In this document: one piece after another, positions 14,109-64,000 of the stretch
Layout of the letters: every line of letters begins with the position of its first letter
Position numbering within the stretch: position 1 is the first letter of the stretch
From: Rhizobium sp. 9140
Lineage (GTDB): Bacteria; Pseudomonadota; Alphaproteobacteria; Rhizobiales; Rhizobiaceae
Direction: 5' to 3'
Length of the DNA stretch: 64,000 nucleotides
NCBI RefSeq assembly: GCF_900067135.1
Contig: NZ_FJUR01000001.1
Location: 3,605,123 to 3,669,122 of the forward strand
Translations under genes and position numbers: made by a program
The notes under the pieces: model-generated
The model's input: the letters and a program-made list of their open reading frames with translations, nothing else
What the model was told of the DNA's origin: nothing
Databases searched by the model: none

Positions 14109-14609
14109 CTATTTCTGCTCGATCGCATCGACGAAGTGATCCTTGACGATATCGAGGATAGCCGTAATCGACGCCTCGTTGAACCCGAGGAATTGCCGCT
14201 TGGGGATTTTCACGCTCTGAACCTTGAACGTCTGTCCGCCCATCGAGAACACCAGCGCCTCGGCTGTCTTCGGTCGGATCGTTCCGCCCTCATTGTGAAT
14301 CCGCGCATAGACTTCGTTCGAGCCGATCTCGACGCCGTCGCCGGCGAGCTGCCACACGATCTGGGAAAGGCTGCGCGTCTCACCCCGCAGGATGCCTGGG
14401 CCCTTCTTCGTCTTGGCATAGAGCGGATTGAGCGCGACCCACGGCGCGCCGTTCGGATCCTTCTGGTCGATGAAGCGGCGCCGAGTGACCTTGGCTTCGA
14501 ACTCGCCGATGTTCTTCAGCACAGGCTTGATGTTGCCCGCCGCTGCAAGCAGCCGTGCCAGCGCATCATTGATGGAGGCATCGTCGATCGTGATAGTCGC
14601 AGCGGTCAT
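14109..14609 (-). CDS. Virion morphogenesis protein, Mu gpG-like
   Basis: 166 residues. It matches the phage virion morphogenesis family (ITIDDASINDALARLLAA, KVTRRRFIDQKDP, WVALNPLYAKTKK, YARIHNEGGTIRPK). Mu gpG acts in tail completion and head-tail joining. It is separated from MuF by 120 bp carrying an opposing promoter and terminator. The opposing -35 box begins 13 bases upstream of this start codon, so transcription from the other strand could interfere with gpG expression. Confidence 0.85.
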   Translation of the reverse strand: MTAATITIDDASINDALARLLAAAGNIKPVLKNIGEFEAKVTRRRFIDQKDPNGAPWVALNPLYAKTKKGPGILRGETRSLSQIVWQLAGDGVEIGSNEVYARIHNEGGTIRPKTAEALVFSMGGQTFKVQSVKIPKRQFLGFNEASITAILDIVKDHFVDAIEQK

Positions 14610-14621
14610 TGCGTCGTCCCG

Positions 14622-14650
14622 TTGTTCTGCTCGGCTGCCAGTGCTATATT
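14622..14650 (+). promoter_or_regulatory. Sigma70-like promoter on the antisense strand of the head operon
   Basis: TTGTTC (14,622-14,627), a 17-bp spacer and TATATT (14,645-14,650) on the plus strand, opposite to all nearby genes. Transcription would start near 14,657. The boxes and spacing are unchanged in prophage B (59,619-59,647). Confidence 0.5.
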
Positions 14651-14656
14651 CTGGCT

Positions 14657-14729
14657 GTTGGTTGATCGAGGCGCCGGAGCCCTCCGTAGATCATCTGACG
14701 CAAAGCGCGCCCCGGCAGGCGCGCTTTTT
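14657..14729 (+). ncRNA. Candidate antisense small RNA between gpG and MuF genes
   Basis: About 73 nt from the predicted start to an intrinsic terminator, wholly inside the gpG-MuF gap. It would be complementary to the gpG mRNA leader. It contains GGAGCCCTCCG, whose CCCTCC half could pair with ribosome sites. Only two substitutions separate the prophage A and B versions over this stretch. Expression is inferred purely from sequence. Confidence 0.4.
14702..14729 (+). terminator. Intrinsic terminator (plus strand)
   Basis: Perfect 10-bp stem AAAGCGCGCC/GGCGCGCTTT with a 6-nt loop, ending in five T on the plus strand. It stops one base before the MuF stop codon. On the minus strand there is no adequate T-run, so it is oriented against the operon. 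Confidence 0.7.
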
Positions 14730-15974
14730 CTATTCAGCCCGTCGAAACAGAAGCGCACCACGCCGGTAATTCTGAAGGTAATCGTCCTTCGTATCGAAGC
14801 CGGTCACGGCCACCCAGCCCCTGTTGGTCCATTCGAAACGCACGAACAAGGCGCGGCCATCGGGCAGGATGATCCGCTTCAGGTAGGCACGGCGCAAGAC
14901 CACGCCACTTCTCATGGTCGCCCAATCCACCCAGATCTCGTCTGGCGCGATGATGGTATCGGCCAGCAGCTTGGCGTACTGGCCTCGGCCGCGTTTGTCG
15001 CTCTTCAGGCCGACGACGGTCCCGTCCGGCATGCGCTGCTCGAACAGGGACCGGCTGATGGTGATGAGCCCTCCGGACTTGTCGCGGAACGGGCCTTCGT
15101 CCTTCTTCAGGTTGAACCGCTTCAGGAAGCCCTCGACATAGGCTTTCGGCTCAAGCCCCTCCGGCATCAGGTCGCGGCTCTTGGCGGCGGTCGGCTCCGG
15201 GAGATCCGGCAGGTTGACCGGCGCCGGCGTATCCGGCCGATACGCTGGCAGCGGCTCTCGCAGCTCGGTTGGCACAACACCGTCGAGCCACTCCTTGCCG
15301 ACGTTGTATTCCCAGCCGCGATCGATGCCGCCGATCCGCTCTTCCTTCTCCCCGGTGCGAGGATCGATACCGTCATACCTGACCAGCTCGGGCGACTCGT
15401 CCGGCGCATCCTTGCCGAGCGCTTGCATCTCGCGTCGGGACAGAGCCTCGACATCGCAACCGCATCCCCAGCCATTCGGCGGGTAGATGCGGTCCCAGAT
15501 CGGATCGGTTGCGGCCCAGACCTTGCCGTCCCAGGCAAGGTGCTGAAGACGCGGATGCAGCGCGCCGGAATGGACGTACTGCCAGTAGGGCCGATACTTC
15601 AGGACATCGGGATCTGTGAGCTGCTTATAGCGCCCGGCCATATAGCTGGTGCGCATGTTTGTCGTGTAGATGATCCGCGCGCGCCATGCGCGCCGCTCGC
15701 CATCCGTCGATCCACGCGCATTAAAGAGCCAGCCCGTGCGATCGACGATGGCGTCAAAGTCCTTTTGAAACTCTTTGAAGCCCGTTCCCTGGACACGCGC
15801 TTTCTCGATCGCCGCCCGGAAATCTCCCAGCATGTCATCCCGCGTGACGCCGGCGACAGAAAAGCCGCGGACATGGGCTCCATGCTTCAGATCGTCATAG
15901 CGCCTGGTGGGCAGGTTGACCTTGCCGGCGACGAAGTCGATTGCCTCCTGAAACGGGATCTGCTCACCGGCCAT
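14730..15974 (-). CDS. Minor head protein, MuF-like (Mu gp30 / gpF)
   Basis: 414 residues. The N-terminal half carries the MuF domain (WLFNARGSTDGERRAWRAR, IIYTTNMRTSYMAGRY, then PNGWGCGCDVEALS with paired cysteines). MuF proteins enter the head with the portal and may be ejected with DNA. The C-terminal portion (from about 270) is a separate domain (GGLITISRSLFEQRMPDGTV) resembling barnase/EndoU-like toxin or polymorphic C-termini; I cannot name it with certainty. It overlaps the portal stop by 11 bp. The last mismatch with the prophage B copy lies inside this gene at 15,660. Confidence 0.85.
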   Translation of the reverse strand: MAGEQIPFQEAIDFVAGKVNLPTRRYDDLKHGAHVRGFSVAGVTRDDMLGDFRAAIEKARVQGTGFKEFQKDFDAIVDRTGWLFNARGSTDGERRAWRARIIYTTNMRTSYMAGRYKQLTDPDVLKYRPYWQYVHSGALHPRLQHLAWDGKVWAATDPIWDRIYPPNGWGCGCDVEALSRREMQALGKDAPDESPELVRYDGIDPRTGEKEERIGGIDRGWEYNVGKEWLDGVVPTELREPLPAYRPDTPAPVNLPDLPEPTAAKSRDLMPEGLEPKAYVEGFLKRFNLKKDEGPFRDKSGGLITISRSLFEQRMPDGTVVGLKSDKRGRGQYAKLLADTIIAPDEIWVDWATMRSGVVLRRAYLKRIILPDGRALFVRFEWTNRGWVAVTGFDTKDDYLQNYRRGALLFRRAE

Positions 15975-21099: not shown

Positions 21100-21956
21100 G
21101 CGGCGATATCCTCGGCGGGTGTGTAGGGCTGGATCATGGCGAGCGTCTCCCTGCCGACGATGCCATCGACGACAAGGCCACGGGCGCGCTGGAAGGTTTT
21201 CACGGCTGCTTCCGTGCCGGGACCAAAGTCGCCATCGACCGTGAGCAGGTAATGGCCGGCAGCCGCGAGGCCGCGCTGCAACTGATCAACGGCCGGGCCC
21301 TTGGACCCGCGCCGCAAGATCGTGACCGCATTTGGCGTGTTCTGGTTTGCCGCGATCAGCTTGACCTGCAGCTCTGTGACAACGGACTTCGCCTTGCCGA
21401 GCTTCAGGCGGCGATCGTCGAGGCCATTGCGGCCTCCGTTCACGACCTTCGTCACCGCGATCAGGTCATCGCGATCGGCGATGTCATTGAGCTTCTTGGT
21501 TGACCAGAAGAAGAACACGGCCCACGCCGCCCATGGGAATTCGGCGACCAGCTCGGGCTGCGCCTCGAAATCGGGGCAGTTCGGCTGAATGTCGCGCATC
21601 CAGATGGTGAAGCGGCGATAGTTGTCGCGTCCGGTGAGCTGCAGCGGGCAGCGACCCTTGAAGCGCTTGCCATCGCCGGCCTTGACGTTGCCGAGATCCT
21701 TTCGGTTTTCGTAGGCCGCACCTGACGCATACTCCTCGAGCGTGCAGAACCCGTCGCATTCATGGGCGACCTGTGCGAGCAGGTGCGCGATGCGCAGGGC
21801 GGAGGTCACCTCGAACCGGATCAGCATTTCAGGGAGGATCGCGGCGAAGCCGGCGATGATGGCCTTCTGCTTCTGCCCGATCAGACCCGTCGAACGCGGC
21901 ACGATGGCGTAAAGCGACGAGGCGTCAACCGAGGAAGCGAGAGTTGGGAGAGGCAT
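21096..21956 (-). CDS. Endolysin: GH19-like muramidase/chitinase domain plus peptidoglycan-binding domain
   Basis: 286 residues. The N-terminal domain (about 20-190) is GH19-like, with AQVAHECDGFCTLEE around Glu66 and Glu74/75 as likely catalytic acids, and KRFKGRCPLQLTGRDNY downstream. The C-terminus (about 210-278) is a PG_binding_1 domain (SKGPAVDQLQRGLAAAG, then VDGDFGPGTEAAVKTFQ). No signal peptide is seen, so release would depend on the holin. AGGAA precedes ATG 21956. It is the first gene after the activator, probably first in the late operon. Confidence 0.88.
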   Translation of the reverse strand: MPLPTLASSVDASSLYAIVPRSTGLIGQKQKAIIAGFAAILPEMLIRFEVTSALRIAHLLAQVAHECDGFCTLEEYASGAAYENRKDLGNVKAGDGKRFKGRCPLQLTGRDNYRRFTIWMRDIQPNCPDFEAQPELVAEFPWAAWAVFFFWSTKKLNDIADRDDLIAVTKVVNGGRNGLDDRRLKLGKAKSVVTELQVKLIAANQNTPNAVTILRRGSKGPAVDQLQRGLAAAGHYLLTVDGDFGPGTEAAVKTFQRARGLVVDGIVGRETLAMIQPYTPAEDIAA

Positions 21957-57772: not shown

Positions 57773-58888
57773 TCAGCGGCGGTTCTTCAGGCGCATCGCA
57801 GCTGTGGCGGGATCGATGTCCTCGCCACGTTCCTTCGCAGCCTTGATTTCGGTCTGGATCGCGATGGCGACCTGATTGCTGTCCGAGAAGTCCGGACCAT
57901 TGCCGTTTGCCAGTTCCGTCGTTTCGACGGGCACGGGCAGCTTTTCGAGCAGCTCGCGAAAGGCGCCGCGCGGCGACGTCGTCTTCTGAGCGCCTGCTTC
58001 CGAGAAGGTCAGCACCTCGTCGGACATTTCCGAAAACAGCGCGATGGCGGTGTCCTTCAGGCCGATCGGGAGACGGCCGGCTGCGATGATGCCTTCGACA
58101 AAGGCGCTATCGGCCTGAGCCTGGGCCCTGGTGTTGGCCTCGGAGAAGGTCGTTTCGCGGGCCTTGATCGCGGCTTCACGAGCATCGAGTTCGGCAAGCC
58201 GCTCGGCCTCCGTCTTCTGGACGTTGGTCATGGAAAGATCCTTGATGGTTTCAGAGAAGGTCGGCCGCACCTCTTCCTCACGCGCTTCAGCACGCATGGA
58301 GGCAGCGTTGTCCGTGATCTGGTCGATCTCGTATTGCGGGATGATCCGATCGGCCGTCGCGATGTCGGCCGTCTCGATGAAGTAGTCGCGCATGCCCCGG
58401 AAGAGCCGGCCGATGCTGTCCATCGTCCAAGCGGTGCGCCAAGGCGTCTCGGCAAACTCCAGAATAAGGTCCGTCGCTTCAGCGAATTCGATCCCGGCCA
58501 AACCTTTGACGGCCGGTGGCTCGGCGCCGAGGAAGCCGACATGACGAAGATGGTAGGAGCCGGGCGTCGGGTTTCCGGGTGCGGCTGGATCGTAGAGCGC
58601 GGCCGAGACCTTCAGGAACTTGCCGTCGCGCACCATCTCAGAAAAGGACGGGTCGAGGCGATCAGGCTCGGCGACGAGGCGCCCGTCTTTCACCGACAGC
58701 GCCTTCACCCAGCCGAATGCCGGCGCGTTCGTCTTCGGATGACCGACAACGATCGGCGCCTGATGGTTGGCCGGATCGTAAGAGGAGGCGATCGCCGCAA
58801 CATCGGCGTCGGAGAAGGTGATCGCCTTCCCCTGCGTCGAAACATGGCTGCCGGTTTTGAAGATTTCGAACGGTTTCATGCCCGGCAT
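57773..58888 (-). CDS. Head maturation protease and scaffold, Mu gpI-like (prophage B)
   Basis: 371 residues, with the same protease half and scaffold-like C-terminus as the copy at 12776. The internal MTNVQKTE methionine, the candidate scaffold start, is conserved. The stop of the 29-codon upstream frame also abuts the ATG here. Confidence 0.85.
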   Translation of the reverse strand: MPGMKPFEIFKTGSHVSTQGKAITFSDADVAAIASSYDPANHQAPIVVGHPKTNAPAFGWVKALSVKDGRLVAEPDRLDPSFSEMVRDGKFLKVSAALYDPAAPGNPTPGSYHLRHVGFLGAEPPAVKGLAGIEFAEATDLILEFAETPWRTAWTMDSIGRLFRGMRDYFIETADIATADRIIPQYEIDQITDNAASMRAEAREEEVRPTFSETIKDLSMTNVQKTEAERLAELDAREAAIKARETTFSEANTRAQAQADSAFVEGIIAAGRLPIGLKDTAIALFSEMSDEVLTFSEAGAQKTTSPRGAFRELLEKLPVPVETTELANGNGPDFSDSNQVAIAIQTEIKAAKERGEDIDPATAAMRLKNRR

Positions 58889-59105
58889 CTAAGCCAAGGC
58901 GTGCCCCGTCGTCGGGACCGCGAAATCGCACACCGAGGAACAAAGGCTGGAAATCCGGACGGGAGGGCAGCGGCGCATGCCGGACACGATCTTCAGATCG
59001 TTTTCAAAGCCGTTTCAAAGCCCTCTGGCGCGTTTGACCGACCTGTGCGCCATCACCGGGCCTTCAAGCGCACCATTGGCCTCCTGAAGCCCTTTTGCAA
59101 GCAGG
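58889..59105 (-). other. Leader between gpG and protease genes (prophage B)
   Basis: 217 bp without a recognisable gene. The AGGAGG motif and the three short frames seen in prophage A are all still open, although the 12- and 29-codon frames carry amino-acid changes. Confidence 0.3.
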
Positions 59106-59606
59106 CTATTTCTGCTCAATCGCCTCAACGAAGTGATCCTTGACGATGTCGAGGATAGCCGTAATCGACGCGTCATTGAACCCGAGGAATTGCCGCTTGG
59201 GGATTTTCACGCTCTGAACCTTGAACGTCTGTCCGCCCATGGAGAACACGAGCGCCTCGGCCGTCTTCGGTCGGATCGTTCCGCCCTCATTGTGGATCCG
59301 CGCATAGACTTCGTTCGATCCGATTTCGACGCCGTCGCCGGCGAGCTGCCAGACGATTTGGGAAAGGCTCCGGGTCTCTCCGCGCAGGATGCCTGGGCCC
59401 TTCTTCGTCTTGGCATAGAGCGGATTGAGCGCGACCCACGGCGCGCCGTCTGGATCCTTCTGATCGACGAAGCGGCGCCGGGTGACCTTGGCTTCGAACT
59501 CGCCGATGTTCTTCAGCGCTGGCTTGATGTTGCCGGCCGCTGCCAGAAGGCGCGCCAGCGCATCGTTGATGGAGGCATCGTCGATCGTGATTGTCGCAGC
59601 GGCCAT
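59106..59606 (-). CDS. Virion morphogenesis protein, gpG-like (prophage B)
   Basis: 166 residues. Few changes from the protein at 14109 (FVDQKDPDGA for FIDQKDPNGA; FNDASITA for FNEASITA). The antisense promoter again overlaps its leader. Confidence 0.85.
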   Translation of the reverse strand: MAAATITIDDASINDALARLLAAAGNIKPALKNIGEFEAKVTRRRFVDQKDPDGAPWVALNPLYAKTKKGPGILRGETRSLSQIVWQLAGDGVEIGSNEVYARIHNEGGTIRPKTAEALVFSMGGQTFKVQSVKIPKRQFLGFNDASITAILDIVKDHFVEAIEQK

Positions 59607-59618
59607 TGCGTCGTCCCG

Positions 59619-59647
59619 TTGTTCTGCTCGACAGCCAGTGCTATATT
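59619..59647 (+). promoter_or_regulatory. Antisense sigma70-like promoter (prophage B)
   Basis: TTGTTC-17-TATATT as in prophage A. Here the -10 lies in the loop of a perfect 9-bp inverted repeat (GACAGCCAG at 59,630-59,638 and CTGGCTGTC at 59,648-59,656); in prophage A only five of those pairs form. Confidence 0.5.
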
Positions 59648-59653
59648 CTGGCT

Positions 59654-59726
59654 GTCGGTTGATCGAGGCGCCGGAGCCCTCCGTAGATCTTCTGACGCAA
59701 AGCGCGCCCCGGCAGGCGCGCTTTTT
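59654..59726 (+). ncRNA. Candidate antisense small RNA (prophage B)
   Basis: The same predicted RNA of about 73 nt, differing from the prophage A version at two bases, with an unchanged terminator stem. It is antisense to the gpG leader. Confidence 0.4.
59699..59726 (+). terminator. Intrinsic terminator, plus strand (prophage B)
   Basis: 10-bp perfect stem AAAGCGCGCC/GGCGCGCTTT with five T, ending next to the MuF stop codon. Confidence 0.7.
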
Positions 59727-60971
59727 CTATTCCGGTCGGCGGTAGAGCAACGCTCCACGACGATAATTCCGAAGGTAATCGTCCTTCGTGTCGAAGCCGG
59801 TCACGGCCACCCAGCCCCTGTTGGTCCATTCGAAGCGCACGAACAGGGCACGGCCATCGGGCAGGATGATCCGCTTGAGGTAGGCACGGCGCAAGACCAC
59901 GCCGCTTTTCATGGCCGCCCAGTCCACCCAGATTTCGTCTGGCGCGATGATGGTATCGGCCAGCAGCTTGGCGTACTGGCCCCGGCCGCGTTTGTCGCTC
60001 TTCAGGCCGACGACGGTCCCGTCCGGCATGCGCTGCTCGAAGAGCGACCGGCTAATGGTGATGAGCCCGCCGGACTTATCGCGGAACGGGCCTTCGCCCT
60101 TCTTCAGGTCGAACCGCTTCAGGAAGCCTTCGACATAGGCTTTCGGCTCCAGGCCCTCCGGCATGAGGTCGCGGCTCTTGGCGACGGCCGGCGCGGGAAG
60201 ATCCGGCAGGTTGGCCGGCGCCGGCGCATCTGGCTGATACGCTGGCAGCGGCTCGCGCAGCTCGGTCGGCACGACACCGTCAAGCCATTCCTTGCCGACG
60301 TTGTATTCCCAGCCGCGACCGATGCCGCCGATCCGCTCTTCCTTCTCGCCGGTGCGAGGATCGATACCGTCATATCGGACCAGCTCGGGCGCCTCATCTG
60401 GCGCATCCTTGCCGAGCGCCTGCATCTCGCGCCGGGACAAAGCCTCGACATCGCAACCGCATCCCCAGCCATTCGGCGGGTAGATGCGGTCCCAGATCGG
60501 ATCGTTTGCTGCCCAGACCTTGCCGTCCCAGGCGAGGTGCTGAAGGCGCGGATGCAGCGCGCCGGAATGGACGTACTGCCAGTAGGGCCGATACTTCAGG
60601 ACATCAGGATCTGTGAGCTGCTTGTATCGCCCGGCCATGTAGCTGGTGCGCATGTTCGTCGTGTAGATGATCCGCGCGCGCCATGCGCGCCGCTCGCCAT
60701 CCGTCGATCCACGCGCATTAAAGAGCCAGCCCGTGCGATCGACGATGGCGTCAAAGTCCTTTTGAAACTCTTTGAAGCCCGTTCCCTGGACACGCGCTTT
60801 CTCGATCGCCGCCCGGAAATCTCCCAGCATGTCATCCCGCGTGACGCCGGCGACAGAAAAGCCGCGGACATGGGCTCCATGCTTCAGATCGTCATAGCGC
60901 CTGGTGGGCAGGTTGACCTTGCCGGCGACGAAGTCGATTGCCTCCTGAAACGGGATCTGCTCACCGGCCAT
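59727..60971 (-). CDS. Minor head protein, MuF-like (prophage B)
   Basis: 414 residues. The C-terminal two thirds differ from prophage A by scattered substitutions (PAYQPDAPAPANLPDLPAPA linker against PAYRPDTPAPVNLPDLPEPT). The N-terminal 105 codons, right of 60,657, are identical at the DNA level. Confidence 0.85.
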   Translation of the reverse strand: MAGEQIPFQEAIDFVAGKVNLPTRRYDDLKHGAHVRGFSVAGVTRDDMLGDFRAAIEKARVQGTGFKEFQKDFDAIVDRTGWLFNARGSTDGERRAWRARIIYTTNMRTSYMAGRYKQLTDPDVLKYRPYWQYVHSGALHPRLQHLAWDGKVWAANDPIWDRIYPPNGWGCGCDVEALSRREMQALGKDAPDEAPELVRYDGIDPRTGEKEERIGGIGRGWEYNVGKEWLDGVVPTELREPLPAYQPDAPAPANLPDLPAPAVAKSRDLMPEGLEPKAYVEGFLKRFDLKKGEGPFRDKSGGLITISRSLFEQRMPDGTVVGLKSDKRGRGQYAKLLADTIIAPDEIWVDWAAMKSGVVLRRAYLKRIILPDGRALFVRFEWTNRGWVAVTGFDTKDDYLRNYRRGALLYRRPE

Positions 60972-62438
60972 CGACGGATGCCACGCCTTCGAGCTGGGCG
61001 AGCAGCGCGGCCTGCTCGAGGAGCTGAGCCAGATCGTCTACGCCCATCTCCGACGACAGCCGTGCCAGCCGTAGCGTCAGATCGTCATAATCGCGCGCCT
61101 CGGCGAACTCGGTGCGGATCTGTCCGATCATGCTGTCGAACACGCCGGCGCCGGCGGTCTCCAGCTGGTCGGTCAGGTTGGCCACGACACGCTCGCTGTT
61201 GGAACGTGCCGGCGGGTCTGCGAAATCCAGATTATCGAGCGCGCCCTTGGCCGCAACGCCGGGCTTGCCCGGTTTGGTCTCCGGCGCCGGCTTCTCAATC
61301 CATTCGCCGCCATAGGTGTCGTCGATGTACTGCGGGTCCTTCGGACGATAGCCCATCTTGTAGATCGTCTCGTCGCGCTTGATCTTCTCGTTGAGATCCT
61401 CGGCCTCGGCGAAATCGCGCCAGACGTCGGGGATGCCGGCGCCGGGAAAGTTCAGCTCGACGATCCACCGGGCGATGGTGTCCTTGATGGTGGCGGAGAT
61501 CAGATCGGCATCCGCCTTGGCGATCGCAACGCGCACCTCGTTGTGGACTTCGCCGAGCGATCGCGCGCCGCGCTCGCCGGAGTTCGTGGTCAACGTCTCA
61601 CCGAGCACCGCCTCGCTCATAAGTTCGTCGAGGTATCGGTTCAGCTTCTCAAACACGTCGCCGCCGCCGGCCTTCGCCTCCAGCAGCTCTACGATGACGT
61701 TTTCCGGTACCGCAATGCCGGTGTCGTTCGCCAGCTGCCGGATCGCGGCCAGCATCTCGTCCTGGCGTTGCTTGTCGTAGCCACCGGGATACGTGATCTT
61801 CGTCGTCGGCGTGCCGTGTTTCTCGACGGCGCGCAGCCACTGTGCCAGTGCGTTGCGCTTCATCCATGCGGGCCAGTAGAGGACTTGCCCTATGCCGACG
61901 CCATATGGATCGTCTTCATCGTCGTCGATCGAATGCCTGTGAACCACGAACTTCCGATCGGGAACCGGCACACCCTCGATCATGGCAGCGCGCGTCAGGA
62001 GCCGGAGTTTGCCGTCCATGTCGAACCGGAACCGGCGCTGCTTCTTGACCTTAACGGCCTGTAGCGTCCAGACGCCGGCGACATTGGCCCAGAGAACCTC
62101 GGCAACGGAGAAGCCCTTCAGGACGGCGCCCAGCATGCCGCGTGTCAGCTTGTCGAAGTCGATCGCCTTCAGCTGGCGCTTGACTTCCTCGGCCGCGCGC
62201 TTGTCGAGATCGCTTTCCGATGCCTCGAAGACACTCCATTCGCGGCTGACCACTTCCAGCTTTCGCTTTTGCAGGATGGCGAAGGCATGCGGATCGCGCC
62301 GGATCTCGTCATAGAGCTGATGGCTCTTGCCAAGGCCACGCGTGCGCAGGATCTCGTCTGTCGGCTGCATGACGCCGGCGAACTCCGGGACGAACGGGTC
62401 CGTCCGGATCGTTGCGATCTCCATGGTGGTTCAGCCAT
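60961..62438 (-). CDS. Portal protein, DUF935, with a one-base deletion near its start (prophage B)
   Basis: The frame from ATG 62424 gives 487 residues identical to residues 6-492 of the prophage A portal. A T missing near 62,431 (GGTGGTTCAGCC against GGTGGTTTCAGCC) puts the usual ATG (62438) out of frame. Either the internal MEIATIRTDPF start is used or, more likely, the base is a sequencing error, since further deletions follow to the right. Confidence 0.8.
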
Positions 62439-62439
62439 C

Positions 62440-64000
62440 TCAGTACCCCGTAAATGCGGAAAGATCGGATCGGGCGGCTACGGCGCCGTAAGCTCCGGTC
62501 GCGTCCGTGAACTGGCCGGCTGTCGGACGGTCATCCCCTGTCACGCCGGCGCCAACTTCGCCGCCTTCCTGCTCACTGGCATAAACTGCCAACGCTCCGG
62601 CGACGGCACTGTCGCCATGGCGCGCGAAACCGTCCCCCTTGCGTGCGAGCATCGTCCGGCACCTTGGCAATGCCCTTGGTCATCTTCAGCAGACGGTAAT
62701 CGCCGAGCACGTCGTCATCGAGCGGCAGCTCAAACGTGCCGTCTTCGAAGCCGGCTTTCAGCTTCGGCATGTTGAGCATGTACCATTGCTGCGAGAGCTT
62801 GATCTCCGAGACGAACGACGCGCCGAACGCCTGCCGTGCCGCCTCGGCATGCGCCGCACCGTTGCCGGTAGCGTCAAAAGCCGCGTGGAAGAAGCGCGGC
62901 AAATGCTTTCGCAGGAAGAGGATGATCTGGCGGGCTCTCGAACGGCACGTTGCGCAGCTCGAGGAGGAACGGCGTGCGCAGGCTGGTGTCGAGACGCACC
63001 TGAAACGGATGGATCACGGACAAGTCGCCCGATCGGCCGAAGTCCTGGCGAAGCCGGACCGCATCGTCGGATCGAGACGCTTCAGATGCGGCAGGAGCTG
63101 CTCGGTGCAGAAGTCCGCGATCTCCGCATCTCGAAGCTCTTTCGGCCATCGACAAAGCCTTCCGGCGACGCCCAGCGAATAACCGGAATGTCTTCCTTCA
63201 TCCGCGACATGATCAGTGATCGGGTAAGGAACGCGCCGACGACATCGATGGGATGCAGAACAGCTCCTCGTCAGCGCCGGCGCCATAGAACTTGATGATG
63301 TCCTGGCGCCAGTCGGCCTCCGCCTCGGCCGACCACGGCTTGCCGGTCACATAGGCGATCCGCTCGTAGAGCCCCTGCTGCAGCGCCGTGTCGAAATCGA
63401 TGCGCAGATGCTTGTAGCTCTGCCGGCCGGCAGGGATCTCTTGGATCTGTTCGTTGAAGTGGTTGTCAAAGCCATCATGCGTGGAGCAGACGATGACCTG
63501 TCCGCCCACATTAGGAACGCGAGCGCCGCCTTTAGCAGTTCTTCGAGGCTGTCAACGAAGGCCGCTTCGTCGATCATGACGACGCCCTGCTTACCGCGCA
63601 GGGTGCGCGGCGCCGATGACAGGCCGACGATTTCGAAGCCCGACGAGAACTTGATCCGGAATGCCTGAATGGCGCGCTCGCCATCCTTGTCCGAGTCGTC
63701 CCAGATGAATTCCTGCATCTCCAGCGCGGCTTGGCTGAAGGCGCGGGCCCACATGGCGCAGGCGTCGATGAACTCCGCGTCATCTCCTGGCTATAGGAGA
63801 TGTACATGAAGTCCATGCCGCCGGCTTCGCGGCACGCGCTGCGCGCAGGACGGCATAGGCTGCGCACGCCATGTCAGGCCGATACGGCGCGACTTCTCGA
63901 CGAAGAGAACGCGGCAGGCCGTTGTCTCGAGGAGGGCAGCGTCTGCTGCTGGTACGGCAACAGCGCCTTGCGGGCGCCGATCCGGTTGATGACGGCATCG
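62440..64000 (-). pseudogene. Terminase large subunit, frame broken by deletions and cut by the right edge (prophage B)
   Basis: DNA matches 17,444-19,016 without substitutions but lacks 12 bases in 10 events, near 62,634 (2), 62,932 (2), 63,049, 63,147, 63,235, 63,507, 63,776, 63,829, 63,869 and 63,938. The protein therefore appears as overlapping fragments, with the Walker B region (VVMIDEAAF) still readable around 63,570. Lack of substitutions argues for sequence errors, so the true gene may be intact. The N-terminal codons lie beyond 64,000. Confidence 0.75.

Follow-up and report, generated by a model that had tools for sequence, protein, structure and literature searches.

Type III toxin-antitoxin systems have a layout in which an RNA with tandem repeats is encoded upstream of the toxin, in the same operon (PMC5086642, in the part available). 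In MuF polymorphic toxins, a small ORF, the putative immunity gene, follows 89.4% of the 191 MuF toxin genes with a known domain, and the same 2017 survey, in its available sections, left open whether the C-terminal extensions of MuF proteins from proteobacteria are novel toxin domains (PMC5576092). PBECR domains of polyvalent phage proteins have been described in excerpts of PMC5512222 as predicted RNases, of which the Mu version is inactive. The nearest phage case, among the matches listed, appears to be AbiF-RCd22 from a C. difficile prophage (accessible portion of PMC12373285). The small cassette described here is probably (at a rough probability of 0.7) an RNA antitoxin gene, that is, an immunity gene, for the RNase domain that ends the neighbouring MuF head protein.

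The cassette is located on the plus strand of the window, which is the whole stretch of 64,000 nucleotides of Rhizobium sp. 9140 DNA that was analysed. It occupies the gap between two genes of the opposite strand: the MuF head protein (14730-15974, minus strand), which carries PBECR2 at its C-terminus and is the predicted toxin partner, and gpG (Phage_tail_S; 14109-14609, minus strand), which follows 120 nt past MuF and is a neighbour, not the inferred target. The MuF protein matches Phage_Mu_F with 46.6 bits and PBECR2 with 106.1 bits, both above the Pfam cut-offs, and the PBECR2 match covers residues 283-411 (14742-15128, minus strand). No ORF of at least 60 aa was found in the 120-nt gap, which therefore holds no small immunity ORF of that size. 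The promoter has a -35 box TTGTTC (14622-14627, plus strand), a 17-nt spacer and an extended -10 box TATATT (14645-14650, plus strand) with TGC directly 5' of it. The predicted small RNA (14657-14731, plus strand), with its start set about 7 nt past the -10 box and its end in the T run, has two hairpins. Hairpin 1 (14657-14699, plus strand) has a GAGG/CCTC helix, and its 3' side contains GCCCTCCGTAG (14679-14689) with CCCTCC at 14680-14685 (plus strand). Its loop GCCGG (14673-14677, plus strand) is complementary to the loop CCGGC (14712-14716) of hairpin 2, the terminator (14702-14729, plus strand), of which the stem (14702-14727) has 10 pairs, 7 of them G-C, and is followed into TTTTT at 14725-14729. 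Prophage B carries a copy of the cassette (59619-59728, plus strand; -35 at 59619-59624, -10 at 59642-59647) beside its own MuF gene with a PBECR2 C-terminus (59727-60971, minus strand), which is the same gene as in L006. These elements had been proposed in a sequence-only reading of the window, and its description is accurate: the -35 box, spacer, -10 box, 10-pair stem, T run and gap location are where it placed them, the -35 box begins 13 nt from the gpG start codon, CCCTCC is present, and prophage B keeps the cassette with two changes in the RNA body, to which two changes in the promoter spacer can be added.

In the window alone, the cassette is no better than chance, and the case for it is comparative. 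The promoter has 8 of 12 consensus bases and is missed by a 9-of-12 scan, 3 terminator-like sites were found in the region compared to 5.0 in shuffles, and the folding of the RNA against shuffles gives a z of -2.4, with -3.1 for the sense strand of the gap. A third genome copy is located in a contig-start stretch (G000:C1:1-5655) whose sequence matches the end of prophage B (window 58262-63900) with 100% identity. Because of this identity to prophage B near the other end, the copy is most simply an untrimmed contig-end overlap. Elsewhere in the window, a weak RNA-model match of 18.4 bits (21402-21490, plus strand) is unexplained and probably due to chance. In another part of the genome, a further distant gpG homologue (L164, G000:C1:28588-28941) is present beside another gene type and has no RNA gap.

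Searches with gpG resulted in 26 loci, 21 viral and 5 from genomes, which were scored for the plan of the cassette: a TTG-type -35, a -10, a hairpin that carries GAGGC together with GCCCTCCGTAG or a similar sequence, and a terminator. The same opposite-strand cassette is present in the MuF-gpG gap of 18 of the 26 loci, a diverged RNA of the same plan is found in three (L008, L026 and L030), and no RNA was seen in the other five (L018, L021, L022, L024 and L028). Where the upstream frame was found, the gap is 105-122 nt long. The arrangement is also present in the named phages RcapMu, RcWaterboi, Rhizobium phage RR1-B and EBPR siphovirus 4. The sequence-only reading had staked its small RNA on conservation in related phages, and promoter, stems and terminator proved to be conserved there.

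In an alignment of 20 RNAs, 94.0% of the pair cells are paired and 15 of the 23 stem pairs show both-sided changes. The covariation score is 0.386 versus 0.184 in shuffles, and none of the 500 shuffles scored as high. In addition, 35 cells are G-U on the cassette strand versus 8 A-C cells, which would be G-U on the other strand, and therefore the RNA is read from the plus strand of the window. The promoter signal is biased in the same direction: among 73 dereplicated loci, a promoter of at least 8 of 12 consensus bases is present on the opposite strand in 50 and on the sense strand in 9 (Wilcoxon p 1.3e-10), and a -10 box of at least 5 of 6 in 45 and 11 loci, respectively. A stop-adjacent hairpin is found in 58 of 73 loci compared to 51 of 123 control stops, a test that is blunt in GC-rich DNA, where two of four RNA-less loci also pass. 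A conserved small RNA on the plus strand is thus strongly supported by these comparisons.

At this moment, the RNA has no counterpart among Rfam families at gathering score: neither the window nor any of 13 related loci gave a match. The best of five weak covariance-model matches, isrK (RF01394), was rejected, as its 19.1 bits fall short of the gathering score, which is 50. A covariance model of the RNA (R1), searched in 397 genomes of the order, matched in 25 genomes at 28 places. Only five of these reach at least 38 bits (three own places, G388 and G225), all beside gpG, and the remaining 23 score 24.9-30.2 bits. The pattern CTACGGAGGGC...GCCTC retrieved 52 viral stretches, of which 17 were recognised by eye as this cassette, including two new ones (L035 and L082); the other 35 were discarded for having neither the promoter nor the second hairpin. 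A blastn search of the gap against phage records gave no match. Many otherwise diverged PBECR2-linked RNAs share the tetranucleotide GTAG (window 14686-14689) on the 3' side of their hairpin 1. GUA is the anticodon of tRNA-Tyr, and substrate mimicry is a thought that this recurrence raises.

The loop of hairpin 1 is often complementary to the terminator loop, with letters that differ between phages. Examples of such complementary pairs are ATTCCGGT/ACCGGAAT, ACCGTTC/GAACGGT and TTTCGGG/CCCGAAA and, by eye, the loops TGGTGAT/ATCACCA of RcWaterboi. Scored automatically, at least five contiguous Watson-Crick loop-loop pairs are found in 36 of 74 dereplicated loci, compared to a mean of 6% and a maximum of 14% when loops were re-paired between loci (300 permutations), and at least six in 18 of 74, compared to a mean of 1% and a maximum of 7%. 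These counts are probably low because the method misassigns some loops, with RcWaterboi scoring 2 pairs.

The presence of the RNA is coupled to the RNase motif of PBECR2. The PBECR2 alignment (A4) matched 310 viral loci; 80 of these were used, and pooling them with others and dereplicating at 90% identity gave a set of 78 loci. All 51 sequences of alignment A5 have Lys50 and Arg56, and we infer from papers on PBECR and CdiA toxins (PMC5512222 and PMC6851490, in their available parts) that this Lys/Arg motif is catalytic. No relative of PBECR2 with a solved structure was found by sequence. Distances were measured from the toxin stop to gpG as recognised by a gpG profile, as the nearest start codon gave false short gaps (15 loci checked by eye). 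Where the motif is intact and gpG is recognised, all 56 of 56 loci leave at least 62 nt, with a median of 115. In loci that have lost it, the distance is -4 (L177), -4 (L226, a member of the L018 group), 10 (L232) and 15 nt (L203), losses that are few (four sequence groups and the ambiguous L278) and counted without regard to shared ancestry. L278, the fifth locus called motif-less, has a 105-nt gap with an RNA; the pattern scores its motif as lost, and its lysine may be retained with an insertion. Another 17 of the 78 loci have no recognised gpG and fall outside the count of 56 and five, and L231 and L276 have no usable stop. L204, in which His replaces Arg, is lost under one scoring and was counted as intact in this comparison. 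L256 and L257 have an intact motif, yet no folded RNA at the stop, only an AT-rich stretch of 74 nt before the next frame. L256 is within the 56 because its gpG match is far downstream, and distance alone is therefore no proof of an RNA. The gap of L263 is just 62 nt and has no clear terminator. In phage JBD25, PBECR2 matches with 80.6 bits, the motif is absent and the gap is 1 nt.

The same is seen when MuF proteins beside gpG are sorted by length, with long ones having at least 130 residues past the MuF core. All three short ones run directly into gpG, and phage YPCBV-1, another short MuF, has almost no gap. Among 46 non-redundant long ones, 43 leave at least 92 nt; the three exceptions (L187, L177 and L018) have all lost conserved residues. 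This comparison excludes the RNA carriers L014, L015 and L027 (wrong frame), L162 (upstream frame too short), L176 (none found) and six duplicate rows. In L176, the MuF gene has disrupted frames, with a PBECR2 end and an opposite-strand RNA-like sequence remaining. Judged by these sequence comparisons, the RNA would belong with the PBECR2 RNase of MuF and not with gpG, and is probably no gpG regulator.

Also, the RNA co-varies with the toxin. Across 24 loci, the partial Mantel correlation between RNA and toxin domain given gpG is 0.58 (p 0.0003), that between RNA and gpG given the toxin is 0.12 (p 0.22), and the correlation between RNA and toxin domain given the MuF core is 0.65. An apparent mismatch of RNA and toxin at L174 and L175 was dropped once two RNAs were found at each locus. 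Their gaps of 211-212 nt hold one window-type RNA and, adjoining the toxin stop, a second one that resembles the L008 RNA more closely in its plan (55% identical). The toxin domains of L174 and L175 are 56% identical and those of L175 and L008 70%, and both loci retain both RNAs. L271 apparently has two RNAs as well (by eye). In L284, the toxin-gpG gap contains an RNA, then an orphan PBECR2 C-terminal remnant (from 2067) and then a second opposite-strand RNA. Polymorphic toxin loci typically contain stacked and orphan modules.

A gap with a promoter on the opposite strand and a folded sequence is also seen after several MuF proteins with non-PBECR2 C-termini; the RNAs of these classes rest on the gap, the promoter and folds seen by eye. 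In class A6, the ten gap-bearing members keep His72 and Lys120, and L187, which has neither, has an 8-nt gap. Phages B3 and AFS-2018a keep a DILHxLRD stretch, and their gaps (123 and 124 nt) contain TATAGT on the opposite strand; a reading frame of 33 codons is annotated in the B3 gap. The DILHxLRD stretch is missing from gp30 of phage Mu, which overlaps gp31. The class of Mu, B3 and AFS-2018a (MuF_C) is weakly supported by Pfam. Further non-PBECR2 gaps with opposite-strand promoters and different folds were observed in L115 and L117; in L116, L120, L178, L179, L184 and L185; in L180, L181, L186 and L188; in L144 and L162; and in L171 and L297. Some of these gaps have GAGCCAT or GAGCAGGAAGCAC in common. 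In Vibrio phage vB-Vv-ZX4290 (L295, 1386-1583), the gene for a MuF protein with HEVGH in its C-terminus has no RNA-sized gap after it but an ORF of 65 codons, which is a candidate for a protein immunity gene.

The conserved RNA and its strand, the promoter, the kissing loops, the motif coupling, the co-variation with the toxin and the stacking are supported by computation, and RNase activity of PBECR2 is predicted. From these we infer transcription, binding, inhibition, toxicity, injection and benefit as follows. With its own promoter and terminator opposite the late operon, the RNA could be made in a prophage of which the late genes are silent. Its two hairpins with kissing loops would bind the PBECR2 domain and block the RNase, as type III antitoxins do. 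The RNase would then do no harm in the lysogen or while late genes are expressed, and would be free once injected into a cell without the RNA. Somewhat more tentatively, yet still with the balance in its favour, the cassette may represent a widespread, unnamed class of RNA antitoxins that guard RNases in the heads of temperate phages. Such a class would be moron-like, convergent with the toxin gene, stackable and of various folds: a pair of kissing hairpins in the PBECR2 group, and other folds next to at least four further groups of MuF C-termini.

Motif coupling and co-variation would be explained equally well if the RNA were a cofactor, guide, processed substrate or packaged cargo of PBECR2 instead of its inhibitor. 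However, immunity fits better with two RNAs per toxin and with the RNA that accompanies an orphan toxin end, and a promoter of its own opposite the late operon suits expression in the lysogen; we regard such a role as unlikely. A cis-antisense RNA, or transcription interference, that tunes MuF-gpG expression would fit the position opposite the MuF-gpG gap and the overlap of the -35 box with the gpG leader. The sequence-only reading had placed a small RNA opposite this leader, and what stands of that claim is the conserved RNA on that strand, not the antisense control. The predicted start of the RNA is about 47 nt upstream of gpG, and its transcription would lead away from that gene, with no overlap with the start or ribosome site of gpG. 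The gap and its RNA are absent where MuF and gpG persist and the RNase motif of MuF is lost, and RNA distances track the toxin domain and not gpG, which makes this role quite improbable.

The same reading had also suggested that CCCTCC pairs with GGAGG ribosome sites, and a trans-acting small RNA that pairs in this way with host or phage mRNAs would agree with GCCCTCCGTAG or ACCCTCCGTAG being present in 20 of 20 A2 RNAs, most of which were picked by that motif. Most of CCCTCC, including its CCTC, is paired with GAGG inside hairpin 1, however, and the motif is altered in other same-place RNAs, for instance those of L008, L030 and RcapMu, so that such action has a very low probability. Finally, the promoter and terminator could have arisen by chance, or the gap could hold a DNA or sense-strand element, considering that counts in the window do not exceed those in shuffles and that the sense strand of the gap folds too. 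Against this stand covariation, the G-U bias, the strand-biased promoter and kissing loops across phages, and we give this explanation hardly any weight. The reading as an RNA antitoxin of the PBECR2 RNase is preferred.

If true, the RNA antitoxin would provide the C-terminal extensions of proteobacterial MuF proteins with a partner and a likely role, and a virion-borne toxin with RNA immunity, for which no report was present among the matches listed from the open-access literature. Head-borne RNases would be a weapon between lysogens, and stacked RNAs would give immunity to several toxins. The absence of the RNA in phages with dead RNases, including phage Mu, would be explained, and predictions would follow for RcapMu, RcWaterboi, RR1-B and B3. 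It also suggests an RNA inhibitor of BECR-type RNases and a superinfection immunity that is independent of a repressor.

Phage morons have their own promoter and terminator, are independent of the operon and occur in some relatives only, and by sequence the cassette has these properties. The PBECR domains of polyvalent phage proteins belong to the same domain family; an RNA partner is not mentioned in the available text of PMC5512222, in which 'noncoding RNA' occurs 0 times. As in the type III toxin-antitoxin systems ToxIN, AbiQ, CptIN and TenpIN, a folded RNA, here possibly pseudoknot-like, would block an RNase, here a predicted one, encoded next to it. In contrast to type III, in which the RNA lies upstream in the same operon with a terminator between RNA and toxin, the RNA gene here is downstream of the toxin on the opposite strand, and the predicted toxin, unlike ToxN, is a BECR-type domain (by Pfam) that forms part of a phage head protein. 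Tandem repeats, a type III trait, were not found in window 14550-14800. AbiF-RCd22 is alike in that a protein toxin is neutralised by a noncoding RNA with its own promoter and terminator, but its RNA is upstream of the toxin and has two repeated motifs, and its toxin is Abi_2/AbiD/F-like (PMC12373285, in the portion available). With the MuF polymorphic toxins, as far as described in the available sections of Jamet 2017 (PMC5576092), the locus shares a MuF head protein with a variable C-terminal domain, a partner gene that directly follows, the stacking of partners and the presence of an orphan toxin end; the partner there is a small protein, whereas here it is an opposite-strand RNA.
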